Source of the DNA: an uncultured Rubrobacteraceae bacterium
GTDB lineage: Bacteria; Actinomycetota; Rubrobacteria; Rubrobacterales; Rubrobacteraceae
Assembly: GCA_902806095.1 (NCBI GenBank)
Contig: CADCVF010000079.1
Coordinates: 1-60,240, forward strand
DNA: 60,240 nucleotides
Direction of reading: 5' to 3'
In this document: positions 5,706-11,209 of the stretch, piece after piece
Layout: each line of letters begins with the position of its first letter
Numbering within the stretch: position 1 is the stretch's first letter
Notes under the pieces: generated by a model
Seen by the model: the letters and a program-made list of their open reading frames with translations, nothing else
Told to the model about the DNA's origin: nothing
Database searches by the model: none
Translations under genes and position numbers: made by a program

Positions 5706-6662
5706 CTATATCGGCAAGGTATTATATTGATAAGCATGAGAAGCGAGTTCTTCTGCGCGGCGGATATAGCGCATGGTCGTCTTGGGGTCTGAGTGGCCGA
5801 GGAACTGTTGGATGACGAGGAGCGGCGCTTCGTTTACGGCCATATTGGTGCCTACGGTATGGCGGATGGAGTGGGGTGAGATGGCCTTTGTTATACCTGC
5901 GGCCAGCACATACTTCTTGACTATGTTCTGGACCGAGCGGGTAGTGAGGGGCTTGTCTTTGCCGACCCTTGAGGTGAAGATAGGTTTACGAGAATCGGGG
6001 TGAGAGGTGAAGCTACGTTCGGTAAGGAGGACGAAGCGTTGGATCAGGCGCCACAGTTCCGGGGAGATCGCCACGTTGCGGACCTTATCGCCCTTGCCCA
6101 GAACGCGCAGAAGCACCTGGTCTGCCGCCGCTTCGCGGAAGTCTCCGATCCTTAGTCCCACGACCTCGGCTTCCCGCAAGCCACACCCCGCCATCACGGC
6201 GAGCATGACGTAGTCGCGGTAGTTGGAGGCCCTGGCGGCGTTCAGCATGCGCGAGAGCTCTTCGTCGGTAAGCACGTTGTAGGCCGGGTCCTGGCGCACG
6301 CTCGGACTCTTGGCGAAAAAGCGTAACGACTCGGGATTGACCGTCGTAGCGCCTGCCATGTACGTGAAGATCAAAAACCGCCTTAGCACGGCAAGCTTCT
6401 TCGCCGCCGTAGCAGCCGCATACCTCCCTATCAAATGCTCCCTGTAAAGCGAGATGTCCTCCGCACTCAAATCCCCAAGCCTCTTCCCCATCTCATCCCC
6501 TAGAAAGGAGATGAATAGTGAAAGTTCTGTATTATAAGTTTTTATAGTCTGAGGGCTGGTGAGGGTACGGAGGTAGACTGCGATGAGGCGTTCGGGCTTA
6601 GGGAGGATGGCCTGAGGGGATGTATCGTCGAGCGGTGTTGGGAGGTTAGTCTTCTGGGTCAT
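5706..6662 (-). CDS. Tyrosine recombinase (XerC/XerD/phage-integrase family)
   Basis: 318 residues. An N-terminal SAM-like core-binding domain (about 25-120: YLRTLTSPQTIKTYNTELSLF) precedes the catalytic domain. The active-site set is complete: Arg in GCGLREAEVVGL, Lys in GKGDKVRNV, HSIRH, the GHSDPKTT box and the nucleophile Tyr in MRYIRRAEE. The enzyme should cut and rejoin DNA at a specific site through a 3'-phosphotyrosine. It is the last gene of the operon at 11209-5706 and its start overlaps apt by 17 bp. This argues for a resident Xer-like enzyme rather than a recent prophage integrase. No attachment site or prophage is visible beside it, so the target is unknown. Confidence 0.85.
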   Translation of the reverse strand: MTQKTNLPTPLDDTSPQAILPKPERLIAVYLRTLTSPQTIKTYNTELSLFISFLGDEMGKRLGDLSAEDISLYREHLIGRYAAATAAKKLAVLRRFLIFTYMAGATTVNPESLRFFAKSPSVRQDPAYNVLTDEELSRMLNAARASNYRDYVMLAVMAGCGLREAEVVGLRIGDFREAAADQVLLRVLGKGDKVRNVAISPELWRLIQRFVLLTERSFTSHPDSRKPIFTSRVGKDKPLTTRSVQNIVKKYVLAAGITKAISPHSIRHTVGTNMAVNEAPLLVIQQFLGHSDPKTTMRYIRRAEELASHAYQYNTLPI

Positions 6663-7209
6663 CGTAGGTTATGAGGGAGACGACGTCGTAGGGTTTTAGT
6701 TTATCGCGGCCGCGGAGGTAACCGAGTTCTATCAGGAAGGCTACGCCGGCGACCGTGCCTCCGGCGTTCTCGACGAGTTGGCACATGGCGCGGGCGGTGC
6801 CCCCTGTTGCGAGCAGGTCGTCGGCGACGAGGACGCGGGTGCCCTCGGGGATCGCGTCGGCGTGGGCTTCGAGGGCGTCGGTACCGTACTCGAGTTCGTA
6901 GGTGGCGGAGATGATCTCTCTCGGGAGTTTTTTCGGCTTGCGGGCGAGGATGAGGCCCTTTCTTGCGCGGTAGGCGAGGGCCGTACCGAACACGAAGCCG
7001 CGGGCTTCGGCCGAGAGTATGCGGTCGTAGGAGATACCATCGGTAGCCTCGGCCAGGGCGTCCACGGCCGTATGCAGGGCGCGGCCGTCCTCTATCAGGG
7101 GGGTTATGTCCTTGAAGGAGATGCCTTGGTGCGGGAAGTCTTGGACGGTGCGGATATGGTTCAGTAGAACTCTTGCGGCGTCTGCGGTGCCTCGCGCCTG
7201 GCCCGTCAC
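6646..7209 (-). CDS. apt: Adenine phosphoribosyltransferase
   Basis: 187 residues, the usual size. It converts adenine plus PRPP to AMP and pyrophosphate in purine salvage in the cytoplasm. The family signatures are all present: VQDFPHQGISFKDITPL at the N-terminus, the EARGFVFG loop, ARKPKKLPRE, and the PRPP-binding motif VLVADDLLATGGTA. Its start overlaps the MerR gene stop by 4 bp and its stop overlaps the recombinase start, so all are translationally coupled. In many bacteria apt sits beside relA; here it lies in a signalling and envelope operon instead. Confidence 0.93.
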   Translation of the reverse strand: MTGQARGTADAARVLLNHIRTVQDFPHQGISFKDITPLIEDGRALHTAVDALAEATDGISYDRILSAEARGFVFGTALAYRARKGLILARKPKKLPREIISATYELEYGTDALEAHADAIPEGTRVLVADDLLATGGTARAMCQLVENAGGTVAGVAFLIELGYLRGRDKLKPYDVVSLITYDDPED

Positions 7210-7940
7210 GGGGCGAAGGTATCTATCACGTTCGCCATCATAAGCTCCTTGATGCGCGAGTCGACGGCTGCGAGGTGGCGGGCCTTGTTCATGGCTTCGC
7301 CAACGCGGCCGTCGTCACCGCTGCGGAGCTCGGGGTTGAGGACCTGCTTGAACAGGGCAGCCTCGCGGTCGACGGCGGCCATGATACCGCGAAGGTGGCG
7401 GGGTTGAATCGAGTACTTCGCCATCTCCAGGGCCATGCGCGCTATCTCCGCGTCGCGCTGCGTCAGCTCGCCGCTGCGTCCGATCACGCCCACGCTGATC
7501 AGCTCTTCGACAAAGCGTATCTCCGTTTCGAGGGTATCGGCCAACTCTTCGCGCGTGTAGGTCCTCTCTTCGAGGACCCTGGAGAGGTCCCCCGCCGCGT
7601 CGCCTGCGGTGAACGCACCGCCTCCCTCTATACGCTTCTTTATGACCTTCAGCGGGAGATACTCCTTGTCCTGGAGCGTCAGGATGTAGCGGAGGAGCTC
7701 TATGTCCTGGGAGGAGAACAGCCTGTATCCGCCGCGCGTGCGGCTGAGGTTGATGAGTCGGCGGCGCTCGAGGTAGCGGATCTTGCTGACCGAAAGGGTC
7801 GGGAACTCTGGTCTCAGGCGCTCGACGACCTCACCGATGGTGAAACTGTCCTTGGTCGCGCTGTACCTCTCCGACGCTGGTGCGTAGCCTTCGTTGGTCT
7901 CTGCATCGATACCGTCGTTCTCCACCACGGTCACTCCCAT
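7206..7940 (-). CDS. ftsR: MerR-family regulator, FtsR-like
   Basis: About 244 residues from ATG 7940 (MGVTVVENDG). The open frame runs on to 8036, but that would overlap the FHA gene. A MerR winged helix-turn-helix lies at about 32-105: FTIGEVVERLRPEF, SKIRYLERRRLI, GGYRLFSSQDIELLRYI. The C-terminal part (ELADTLETEIRFVEELISVGVI and MAKYSIQPRHLRGIMAAVDRE) matches the actinobacterial MerR protein encoded next to the FHA protein GarA, called FtsR in corynebacteria, where it activates ftsZ. There are no metal-binding cysteines. The FHA-MerR order is conserved in actinobacteria, which supports the assignment. The regulatory target here is inferred only. Confidence 0.75.
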   Translation of the reverse strand: MGVTVVENDGIDAETNEGYAPASERYSATKDSFTIGEVVERLRPEFPTLSVSKIRYLERRRLINLSRTRGGYRLFSSQDIELLRYILTLQDKEYLPLKVIKKRIEGGGAFTAGDAAGDLSRVLEERTYTREELADTLETEIRFVEELISVGVIGRSGELTQRDAEIARMALEMAKYSIQPRHLRGIMAAVDREAALFKQVLNPELRSGDDGRVGEAMNKARHLAAVDSRIKELMMANVIDTFAP

Positions 7941-7965: not shown

Positions 7966-8415
7966 CTAGGAGAACACGAACCTGAACCGGTACTTGCCGA
8001 CCTGTATCTCATCCCCGTTGCGCAGGTCGACCGCATCGACCCTGACCCGGTTGACGTAAGTCCCGTTCAGGCTTCCGATGTCGCGTATTCTATACCCGCT
8101 TTCTCCGTGCACGATCTCCGCGTGTTTGCGTGAGACGGTGACATCGTCGAGGAAGATGCTGCTCTCCTGCCCACGCCCGACCGTGACGACATCATCCCCA
8201 AGGTCGTGCATCCTGCGTCCCGCCGTGCCCTCTACCTGATCCATCTCGATCAAAGCCGCACCCTCGGCGCCGCCTGAGGTGCCTGGCTCGACATCCTCGC
8301 CGAAACTCGGCGCGTAAGAGACGGTGCTCTGACCGAAGTCGACCTTAGTGCCGCACTCGGCGCAGAACCTCATCCCCACCGAGACATCGGCTCCACACTC
8401 AGGACACTCACTCAC
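7966..8415 (-). CDS. FHA-domain protein with N-terminal zinc ribbon (GarA-like)
   Basis: 149 residues. A zinc-ribbon knuckle uses Cys4, Cys7, Cys18 and Cys21 (CPECG and CAECG). After an acidic, low-complexity linker comes a canonical FHA domain at about 70-148: TVGRGQESSIFLDD, VSRKHAEI, DIGSLNGTYVNR, LRNGDEIQVGKYRF. FHA domains bind phosphothreonine, so this should be a cytoplasmic Ser/Thr-kinase signalling adaptor. Unlike GarA of mycobacteria, no clear ETT-type phosphorylation site is visible in the linker. Its start overlaps the rsiG stop by 4 bp (ATGA), and the MerR gene follows 25 bp downstream. Confidence 0.85.
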   Translation of the reverse strand: MSECPECGADVSVGMRFCAECGTKVDFGQSTVSYAPSFGEDVEPGTSGGAEGAALIEMDQVEGTAGRRMHDLGDDVVTVGRGQESSIFLDDVTVSRKHAEIVHGESGYRIRDIGSLNGTYVNRVRVDAVDLRNGDEIQVGKYRFRFVFS

Positions 8416-8660
8416 CTGATCTCCTGATCTCCGAGCAACACCCGCGCCAACTCCTCGGGGCCACGCGCGAGGGCGCCCCGCTGTAGGAGCTCGGCACGAA
8501 TCAGATCTATCCTCCCCTGGAGGATTCTCCGCCTGTAACTGATCCTACGCTCCTCCTCCGAGAGCGCCTCTAGAGTCTCTCTCAGATCCTCCTCAGAGAG
8601 GGCTGTGATGTCCCAGGCGTCCTCCCAGTCGAAACTCCCATGCACCCCTGAATCGTCCAT
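8412..8660 (-). CDS. rsiG: RsiG-like anti-sigma factor with c-di-GMP-binding signature
   Basis: 82 residues from ATG 8660 (the frame is open to 8696). It is predicted to be almost entirely helical. Residues 37-52 spell exactly E-X3-S-X2-R-X3-Q-X3-D (E37, S41, R44, Q48, D52). This is the signature by which Streptomyces RsiG binds c-di-GMP and then sequesters the sigma factor WhiG. Streptomyces RsiG carries two motif copies; this protein has one, as described for Rubrobacter, where the protein works as a homodimer. The gene sits between manC-like and FHA genes. No whiG is in the window. The motif is seen directly; function is by homology. Confidence 0.82.
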   Translation of the reverse strand: MDDSGVHGSFDWEDAWDITALSEEDLRETLEALSEEERRISYRRRILQGRIDLIRAELLQRGALARGPEELARVLLGDQEIR

Positions 8661-8698
8661 GGCACGAGTATAACCTACCCTGAACCTGAAGTGCAATC

Positions 8699-11209
8699 TC
8701 AGCTTGAAAGCAGAGCCTGGTCGTCGATCAGGGTCTTCACCAGGTCAACATACTCCTCCACTATCTCCGCTGGACTCCCGTAGCCTTCCTTGGACTCGGC
8801 GTAGACGTAGAACACGGGGCTGTCCGGATCAGGGAGCATAAGGACCCAGCCGTCTTCGACGCCAAGCAGCACGCCCTCGGCGAGGATGGCATCGGGGTCT
8901 CCGCCGAACTTCTCGGCGAGGCCGCGCATCACGCGTCCTTTGGCCGACCACGGGCACTCGATGCGTTCTCTGTGGACGTGGTCGAAGGACTCTCCGAACT
9001 TCTGGCGCACGCTGGAGAGAGACGTCTCGCGGAACACTTCCAGGGCGCTGGCCAGCGTCATAAAGCAGTCAGGAGCAGGCAGGAACGCAGGGAAGATGTA
9101 GCGGCCGTCGGCGAGAGAAGCGAGGTCAGCCCGGATACCTGCCGCCTTTATGGCGACGTTGGAGAGGCCTGTGCGGCTCATTTCGACGCTACCATCGCCT
9201 TCCTCGACGAGCTTGTGGTATCTGCGGCTGAGGTTTATCGGGAGCACGGCCCTTTGCGGATGCATCTGGTCGATGAGGCAGGCGAGCATGACGTCGGGTG
9301 GGACCCACTCGCCCGTATCGTCGACGAACTGCACGTACTCGGCTTCGGGACCGACGACGGCGCCGAAGGCCGCGTCCACTGTCGGCACGATGCGGGCGAC
9401 GCGCTCGATGCTCTCCTGTAGGTTCATCCTCCCCGCTTCACCGACGGCGTTGGCGTTGGCGAAGCCTTCCATGACGACGGCGCTCACGCCGAGACGGGAG
9501 AACACACGGCTCGCCACAAGGCCGGCGACGCCACCGCAGAAATCGACCACGATGGTGGCTCCCGACGTTTTTTCCCTGTCCACGGCGCGTTCGAGGCGCT
9601 CCACGAACTGCTCCACGACGCGGCCGGGGTAGATCAACTCCCCAATGTCCCTGCCGTAGGCCCTACGGTAATCCTCGCGCACGAAGGCCTTCTCTACGGA
9701 CCTCGCATCCCCCTCCGATATAGGGGTGGCGTCGGAGGAGAAGAAGAGGATCTCGACGTCGTCGGGGTCGCTGCCGGCGCGGACATGCGCCCCTGCCGAA
9801 GACTTGCCTGCGAGCACGTCGTGGCGGACGACCCCGGCGTGGGCGGCCCTGAGGTCCCTGATGTTGATCCCGGTTCCGAGCAGCGCGGCTGTCATCGCAC
9901 GCTTGGCGACCTGGGCCGAGAGCGAGGAGTCGCGTCCGAGGGTTACGACGGCCCCTGGGTCGTGCGTGGTGCCGAAGGATGAGGCCAGGCGGGTGACGAA
10001 CTCTGGCGTGAGGTCCACGTTGAACTTGCCGCTTACGATGCCGCGTTTGAACACCGTACGCAGGCCCATGGTCTCGTAGATCAGGGACTGCGTTACGTTG
10101 GCGCCGGTCTCTATCGTCTTGTGAGGGTACACTTTGACCTCTGGGGCTATGGTCGCACCTTCACCGACGATCACATCGTCACCGAGGGCGCTGCGTTCCA
10201 GGATGCGGGCCCGCGCCTGTACGTAGGAGTTGCGGCCGACGAGGGTGTCTACCAGCTCGGCACCCTCTCCTATGTAGGTCCCCTCAGCGATTACGCTACG
10301 CTCCACCGTGGCACCGGCCGAGACGACAACGTTGTCGGCGATGACCGAGTAGGCGCCTATTTTTGCGCCCTCATCGACGCGGACGTTCTCCCCGATCACG
10401 ACTGGCCCTTCGAGCTCGTCGTCGTCGACCAGCGCCCTGCGCCCGACGAAGATGTTCTCCCTCAGGCGCGTGCCAGGGGGCCTGATTCCCTGTACGCGGC
10501 CGTCGAGAACGTCGCGTTGGGCACCGGCGAACTGCTCCAGCGTACCTATGTCCTCCCAGTAATCCTCGGTGATGTAGCCGTAGAGCGGACGCCCGGCGTC
10601 GAGGAGTCTTGGGAAGAGGTCTTTGGAGAAGTCGTACTCACCGTCCTCGGGGATCTCGGCCGTCGCCGAAGGTTCGAGCAGGTAGATGCCGGTGTTTACG
10701 GTATCTGAGAAGACCTGCCCCCATGCCGGCTTCTCCAGAAAGCGCGAGATACGCCCGTCCTCCTCGGTTATGACGATGCCGAAATCCAGAGGGTTCTCGA
10801 CGCTCTTTAGGACCATGGTGGCCTCGGAGCCCTTCTCCCCGTGGAACTGGACCAGCCGGCTCAGATCGGCGTCGGTCAGGGCGTCGCCGCTTATGATGAG
10901 CAGCCGCTCGCCCCCGAGGCCGAGTTGCTGCTCGGCCATCTTCACGGAGCCTGCGGTCCCCGCCGGCGCGTCTTCGACGGAATAGCGCATGTTCACGCCC
11001 CACTCCGAACCGTTCCCAAAGTAGTCCCTTATCTCATCCGGCATGAACTGCAAGGTCACGGCGATGTCGGTGAAGCCGTGGCGCTCTAGTAGTCTCACGA
11101 TGTGCTCCATGCAGGGCGCGTTGACTATGGGGATCATCGGCTTGGGCTGATCGCTGGTAAGTGGCCTCAGGCGTGTGCCCTGCCCTCCGGCCATGATGAT
11201 CGCCTTCAT
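8699..11209 (-). CDS. Mannose-1-phosphate guanylyltransferase / phosphomannomutase-like fusion
   Basis: 836 residues in three parts. Residues 1-235 form a nucleotidyltransferase (GGQGTRLRPLTSDQPKPM, then SGDALTD and LEKPAWGQVFSD) that would make an NDP-sugar, probably GDP-mannose. Residues about 250-370 are a left-handed beta-helix hexapeptide-repeat section (VVIGENVRVDEGAKIGAYSV). Residues about 380-836 resemble an alpha-phosphohexomutase. In that domain the usual phosphoserine loop (TASHNP) and the metal loop (DGDGDR) are not recognisable: the corresponding segments read HVRAGSDPDDVE and VVGPEAEYVQF. The mutase half is therefore probably inactive or altered. It is the first gene of the operon with rsiG, 38 bp upstream of it. 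The product likely feeds cell-surface glycans or mannosylated solutes. Confidence 0.83.
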   Translation of the reverse strand: MKAIIMAGGQGTRLRPLTSDQPKPMIPIVNAPCMEHIVRLLERHGFTDIAVTLQFMPDEIRDYFGNGSEWGVNMRYSVEDAPAGTAGSVKMAEQQLGLGGERLLIISGDALTDADLSRLVQFHGEKGSEATMVLKSVENPLDFGIVITEEDGRISRFLEKPAWGQVFSDTVNTGIYLLEPSATAEIPEDGEYDFSKDLFPRLLDAGRPLYGYITEDYWEDIGTLEQFAGAQRDVLDGRVQGIRPPGTRLRENIFVGRRALVDDDELEGPVVIGENVRVDEGAKIGAYSVIADNVVVSAGATVERSVIAEGTYIGEGAELVDTLVGRNSYVQARARILERSALGDDVIVGEGATIAPEVKVYPHKTIETGANVTQSLIYETMGLRTVFKRGIVSGKFNVDLTPEFVTRLASSFGTTHDPGAVVTLGRDSSLSAQVAKRAMTAALLGTGINIRDLRAAHAGVVRHDVLAGKSSAGAHVRAGSDPDDVEILFFSSDATPISEGDARSVEKAFVREDYRRAYGRDIGELIYPGRVVEQFVERLERAVDREKTSGATIVVDFCGGVAGLVASRVFSRLGVSAVVMEGFANANAVGEAGRMNLQESIERVARIVPTVDAAFGAVVGPEAEYVQFVDDTGEWVPPDVMLACLIDQMHPQRAVLPINLSRRYHKLVEEGDGSVEMSRTGLSNVAIKAAGIRADLASLADGRYIFPAFLPAPDCFMTLASALEVFRETSLSSVRQKFGESFDHVHRERIECPWSAKGRVMRGLAEKFGGDPDAILAEGVLLGVEDGWVLMLPDPDSPVFYVYAESKEGYGSPAEIVEEYVDLVKTLIDDQALLSS

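Follow-up and report, generated by a model that had tools for sequence, protein, structure and literature searches.

Two questions are raised by this locus: whether a short protein carrying a c-di-GMP signature acts as a c-di-GMP-gated anti-sigma factor, and whether the genes around it, which encode an FHA protein, a MerR-family regulator and a sugar-nucleotide enzyme, belong to the same circuit. The window is the whole stretch of DNA that was analysed, 60,240 nucleotides of a contig from an uncultured Rubrobacteraceae bacterium. An earlier note had read these genes as one transcript joining c-di-GMP, Ser/Thr phosphorylation, division control and surface sugar supply. The features concerned are as follows.

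5706..6662, minus strand: tyrosine recombinase (Xer-like), PF00589 E 1e-32, below the XerC/XerD cut-offs; ends the tight row
6646..7209, minus strand: apt, adenine phosphoribosyltransferase, NCBIfam 219.8 bits against a cut-off of 125; 4-nt overlap with ftsR
7206..7934, minus strand: ftsR, MerR-family regulator, NCBIfam NF050798 170.9 bits against a cut-off of 150; Rv1828 C-terminal domain E 1.4e-9
7966..8415, minus strand: garA/odhI-like gene; zinc ribbon, QSTVSY stretch (T31) and FHA domain; its GTG start overlaps the rsiG stop
8412..8660, minus strand: rsiG, ATG at 8660, stop at 8414-8412, 82 aa; by homology a single-motif c-di-GMP-dependent anti-sigma factor
8505..8552, minus strand: c-di-GMP signature E37-X3-S41-X2-R44-X3-Q48-X3-D52, read from the sequence
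8667..8672, minus strand: TATACT, a -10-like box 6 nt before the rsiG ATG
8685..8702, minus strand: CTGA-N8-TTCAGG element over the -35 region, within the conserved block TGTACTTCAGGTTnAGGGGA; candidate FtsR-type operator
8699..11209, minus strand: sugar-1-phosphate nucleotidylyltransferase fused to hexapeptide and PGM/PMM-like domains (Pfam)

RsiG and its predicted sigma partner

The signature E-X3-S-X2-R-X3-Q-X3-D is matched exactly at E37, S41, R44, Q48 and D52, and the claim that the protein is a one-motif RsiG is borne out by profile and homology searches. The Pfam model of RsiG (PF22802) scores 66.6 bits against a cut-off of 27, which excludes a chance origin of the motif, and phmmer searches with the window RsiG match the RsiG of R. 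radiotolerans (7LQ2/7LQ3/7LQ4) over residues 12-78 (E 4.7e-20) and the twin-motif RsiG of 6PFJ (3.5e-7). One RsiG is found in the window genome, whose closest named kin are MAGs of the Rubrobacteraceae and species of Rubrobacter; it has one exact motif and a length inside the single-motif size range of ~80-95 aa. Judged by its sequence, the window protein is a canonical single-motif RsiG and belongs with the one crystallised from R. radiotolerans (7LQ2, 7LQ3, 7LQ4; PMC8325347), which is 58% identical to it, resembles it in size, exact motif and WhiG partner, and stands in the same gene row at locus L079; locus G012 encodes the crystallised sequence and has this row. The twin-motif RsiG of Streptomyces (PDB 6PFJ, 6PFV) shares the signature and the type of sigma partner but differs in being a monomer with two motifs and a long loop, encoded away from garA-ftsR.

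The earlier note had made its reading depend on a WhiG-type sigma factor and c-di-GMP enzymes elsewhere in the genome, and both are present. WhiG (G000:C81:92034-92705) scores 224.3 bits against a cut-off of 189.6 and retains intact K53, G57 and R58, the residues that contact c-di-GMP. Nine GGDEF domains exceed the profile cut-off, seven of them strongly, from which it is predicted that c-di-GMP is made in the same cell; seven Ser/Thr kinases are also over their cut-off. Contacts in WhiG sigma4 are conservatively changed (R239K, K243R), as they are in other pocket-intact species. In several relatives (e.g. G004, G006, G012, G016, G024, G027, G030) WhiG lies ~36-58 kb from rsiG, and G002 carries a second RsiG and a second WhiG (C204, C144) with intact c-di-GMP residues, which may be a paralogous pair or draft-genome contamination.

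A c-di-GMP-dependent hold on WhiG has been established for R. radiotolerans RsiG, and RsiG-WhiG is described as the only sigma/anti-sigma pair known to be gated by c-di-GMP (PMC8325347). Homology and the intact pocket in both partners suggest the same mechanism here. Two copies of RsiG would pair into an antiparallel coiled coil, the two signature motifs of the pair would hold a c-di-GMP dimer, and the loaded RsiG dimer would clamp sigma2 and sigma4 of WhiG, with the result that high c-di-GMP would keep WhiG off RNA polymerase. The window genome differs from R. radiotolerans in its two conservative sigma4-contact changes. A scan of ~20 kb around pilMNO found no credible WhiG-type promoter, so that this stretch does not reproduce the pilus output known for R. 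radiotolerans; the corresponding region of G012 gave none as well, and the relative G024 has an exact match. A genome-wide promoter search for the WhiG regulon (up to 2 mismatches) returned 113 matches against 68 for the reversed pattern and was set aside as too noisy. An operator common to rsiG and the pilus genes was likewise rejected, the two weight-matrix matches (one near pilM in the window genome, one in G003) being unconserved and beside or inside coding regions.

Paired changes in RsiG and WhiG of relatives

All five signature positions are kept in 24 RsiGs of the family (with Q or H at position 48), and the full motif is missing from the RsiG at the same place in seven relatives: G001, G003, G004, G005, G006 and G007 of the same genus and G014 of a neighbouring genus (loci L066-L071 and L097). 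Loss of the motif in close relatives had been named in advance as grounds for rejecting the RsiG reading; it is indeed lost in six of the eight same-genus genomes, although kept in the window sub-clade. This loss does not refute the window RsiG and instead exposes a loss of the ligand pocket that is paired with WhiG. Five of the pocket-lost RsiGs have S41A and R44H in common, with Q48 changed too, G007 has S41G, R44L and D52E, and G014 has R44L only. The conserved columns that change (41, 44, 45, 48, 51 and 52) lie on the ligand-binding helix, and conserved columns off the ligand face are unaltered, except that some of these RsiGs differ at V59 and P68. The seven genomes yielded no second RsiG.

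WhiG was detected in five of the seven, with none from the drafts G003 and G005 (82% and 88%), and K53 is replaced in all five (four times by R, once by N). Every one of the 39 WhiGs taken to partner an intact RsiG has K there, a count which sets aside extra WhiG-like paralogues, a fragment in G010 and a below-cut-off match in G047; because the species are related, the comparison of 5/5 with 0/39 overstates the evidence. Among 57 invariant WhiG columns, K53 is the only one altered in all five pocket-lost genomes, in which K243 is also replaced, by G or C. The RsiG-WhiG contacts mapped in PMC8325347 are nevertheless kept in the pocket-lost pairs (D17, R50 and R55 of RsiG; R43, N47 and E240 of WhiG). 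Purifying selection on rsiG persists, with dN/dS of 0.15-0.54 within the pocket-lost clade against 0.07-0.49 for intact pairs, and GGDEF genes are still present in the pocket-lost genomes.

On a FastTree species tree, in which most relatives are draft MAGs, the pocket-lost genomes form one clade of five and two single lineages, the placement of G007 having low support (0.60). Either two or three losses took place, or the pocket was lost early and regained in the window clade, a less likely course since both partners would have had to revert. As the pocket is lost in both proteins while the protein-protein contacts stay, the sister pairs most likely work without c-di-GMP, and the pattern suggests a repeated uncoupling of RsiG-WhiG from this ligand. 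Such paired loss of the pocket in RsiG and WhiG appears to be undescribed.

The altered pairs might instead recognise another ligand. The residues A41, H44 and E45 are common to five species, which does not look like drift, and rsiG in these genomes is still under purifying selection. However, the replacements differ in G007 and G014, no known ligand fits, and the common residues may descend from a single change, and for these reasons the exchange of one ligand for another is considered unlikely. A related concern is that the window lineage may itself be drifting from c-di-GMP control, given that its sister lineages on both sides in the tree have lost the pocket and that its WhiG carries R239K and K243R. 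Against this, the five signature residues of RsiG and K53, G57 and R58 of WhiG are intact in the window genome as well as in G002, a genome near to it, the RsiG of G008, a genome in which no WhiG was found, is intact too, and rsiG evolves with a dN/dS of 0.17-0.26 in the window sub-clade. Drift in the window lineage is thus judged very improbable, and a gated RsiG-WhiG pair is the preferred reading for the window genome.

The rsiG promoter and the gene upstream

Whether rsiG depends on the sugar-nucleotide gene before it bears directly on the proposal of a single transcript. This gene lies on the same strand, 38 nt from rsiG, and stands ahead of rsiG in most Rubrobacteraceae, as it does in some Thermoleophilia, an arrangement in which c-di-GMP and division could be tied to sugar supply; read-through into rsiG may occur. 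A conserved block,.cTgAGA.TGtACTTcAGGTT.AGGggA.GtTATACT, nevertheless stands before rsiG throughout the family, within the 38-nt gap in the window, and TATACT or TATAAT is found 6-7 nt ahead of the rsiG start in 29 of 31 Rubrobacteraceae. At the starts of garA, ftsR, apt, der, plsC and GTPMM in the Rubrobacteraceae loci no start-adjacent TATA box was found, and in other classes TATACT next to the rsiG start is absent (0/72), which makes the leaderless promoter a trait of the Rubrobacteraceae. It follows from the conserved promoter that rsiG need not depend on the upstream gene. Moreover, the enzyme gene is absent just upstream in L058, L078, L081 and L091, where rsiG-garA-ftsR stays, and is absent upstream in most other classes. 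The rsiG mRNA is therefore probably leaderless and made from its own conserved promoter, the sugar-nucleotide gene probably not being needed for its transcription, and the tie to surface sugar supply through one transcript, proposed earlier, is left unsupported and seems quite unlikely. Among cmk starts, 9/27 also have a TATA box 4-9 nt upstream, possibly another leaderless promoter.

For the upstream enzyme, named a GDP-mannose-type enzyme in the earlier note, the mannose-1-P guanylyltransferase model scores 258 bits, below its cut-off of 440. Its PMM-like half (window 8699-11209) has no obvious TASHNP catalytic motif by eye, the matching stretch being GAHVRAGSDPDD, and the mutase part may for that reason be inactive.

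The pattern CTnA-N8-TTsAGG, also present in the promoter block, has the outline of the FtsR site known from the literature, which at ftsZ of C. glutamicum and M. tuberculosis reads CTAA-N8-TTGAGG (quoted in PMC6683498). This pattern occurs in 18 of 25 rsiG upstream regions of the family and in 0/476 random windows, and in other classes an FtsR-like inverted repeat (at least 12/17 positions) precedes rsiG in 35/71 loci against 1/331 control windows. It may thus be proposed, with weak to moderate confidence, that FtsR controls the row that encodes it. This autoregulation is a lead rather than a result, because the sequences share descent, in the window the CTGA end of the element lies over the stop codon of the sugar-nucleotide gene, and no strict FtsR box was found upstream of ftsZ in 16 genomes. 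Relaxed matches at ftsZ in 10/16 genomes were rejected, since they correspond to conserved ftsA coding sequence and the background in random windows is 8%.

The rsiG-garA-ftsR row across classes

Downstream of rsiG, the proposed coupling of translation holds only in part. The garA GTG at 8415 overlaps the rsiG TGA by 4 nt (GTGA), but the best ftsR start, GTG at 7934, lies 31 nt past the garA stop and does not overlap garA; a ribosome site, GAGAGGA, can be read in the sequence before this GTG. With the overlaps of 4 nt between ftsR and apt and 17 nt between apt and the tyrosine recombinase, the tight row comprises five genes and not three, and rsiG would head the row rsiG-garA-ftsR-apt-xer. Nearly all Rubrobacteraceae loci have a tyrosine recombinase gene after apt. 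The FtsR-like regulator was correctly recognised, as its NCBIfam score indicates. The FHA phosphothreonine reader does have an FHA domain and is better described as a switch of the GarA/OdhI type (PDB 2KFU, GarA, E 2.5e-22), named GarA/OdhI-like only, given that the OdhI equivalog model (NCBIfam) reaches 106 bits against a cut-off of 200. Its N-terminal QSTVSY is kept in the family members checked, with T31 at the place that matches the ETTS phosphothreonine stretch.

Conservation of garA/odhI together with ftsR is already known from Actinobacteria, with a varying gene upstream (PMC6683498). The window resembles the Mycobacterium/Corynebacterium cluster in that the FtsR gene comes after the FHA gene, both on the same strand, but has rsiG, which goes unmentioned in that work, in the variable position upstream of odhI, and has apt and xer downstream in place of a nuclease gene and a second merR. 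Its GarA-like protein differs in an N-terminal zinc ribbon and in STVSY where the Mycobacterium/Corynebacterium GarA/OdhI has ETTSV.

Conservation across the lineage, which the earlier note had wanted checked, was examined by scanning contigs of GTDB genomes with an RsiG alignment as query. Relatives of RsiG number at least 550, and the scan yielded 80 loci whose records are named, in Rubrobacteria, Thermoleophilia, Coriobacteriia/Anaerosomatales, Aquicultor, Solincola and further groups. Genes for a GarA-like protein and FtsR follow rsiG on the same strand in 79/80, often with gaps of 0-30 nt, and the remaining contig ends just past rsiG. This count includes L168 and L238, in which the rsiG reading frame runs past the garA start, and one member, L170, has lost the pocket and is missed by a strict motif search. 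All 31 Rubrobacteraceae loci show the row as far as their contigs extend. Neither garA nor ftsR was found near the Streptomyces-type twin-motif rsiG (12 loci). The rsiG-garA-ftsR order is an old, near-universal row for RsiG of the non-Streptomyces type. In L174, L175, L177, L183, L203, L224 and L228, several of them Coriobacteriia and Aquicultor, the rsiG-garA gap is ~335-490 nt, which is room for one more small gene. The linkage appears to be undescribed: a literature search found no paper linking rsiG to garA, and PMC8325347, which names five single-motif RsiGs from Rubrobacter and Thermoleophilia, mentions neither synteny nor FHA in its main text.

The gene order could be purely historical, kept by shared expression needs or slow rearrangement without any regulatory link among the products. 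The garA-ftsR cluster is already old in Actinobacteria (PMC6683498), RsiG is not known to contact GarA or FtsR, and in Streptomyces the twin-motif RsiG works without the linkage. Against a purely historical order stand the preservation of order and strand in 79/80 loci over several classes, frequently with very short gaps, and the enrichment of the FtsR-like element before rsiG. A historical order is accordingly seen as a real possibility, placed somewhat below even odds.

Three Thermoleophilia-type MAGs have two whole RsiG units in one reading frame beside garA-ftsR (L197:7097-7781, L204:7670-8264, L222:7652-8249). The units are ~55% alike within each fused protein, and each has closer counterparts among single-motif RsiGs of Thermoleophilia than in the other unit. 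In L197 and L222 the second unit still has an apparent ribosome site and an ATG of its own, the ATG being lost in L204. From these sequences the fusion looks like an event separate from the one behind Streptomyces RsiG, and would repeat the proposed origin of the twin-motif form in a way that appears to be undescribed.

Taken together, the reading of the locus as a canonical RsiG that gates WhiG by c-di-GMP, with its own promoter, in an old rsiG-garA-ftsR row and with loss of the pocket in sister species, is given a probability of about 0.8. The wider proposal, that RsiG-WhiG has been uncoupled in at least two to three lineages of this genus and its neighbour with the interface kept, that the old row is under FtsR control and that twin-motif proteins have arisen by renewed fusion elsewhere, is more tentative and is put just short of even odds.

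The window stands amid a natural experiment: among its close relatives the ligand pocket is either kept or lost in RsiG and WhiG alike, and a comparison of these natural variants can tell c-di-GMP gating apart from anti-sigma function. The link to garA and ftsR gives the RsiG switch an unexpected neighbourhood, that of 2-oxoglutarate metabolism and cell division, together with a possible controller, and the fused RsiG units would repeat the duplication that has been proposed for the RsiG of Streptomyces.
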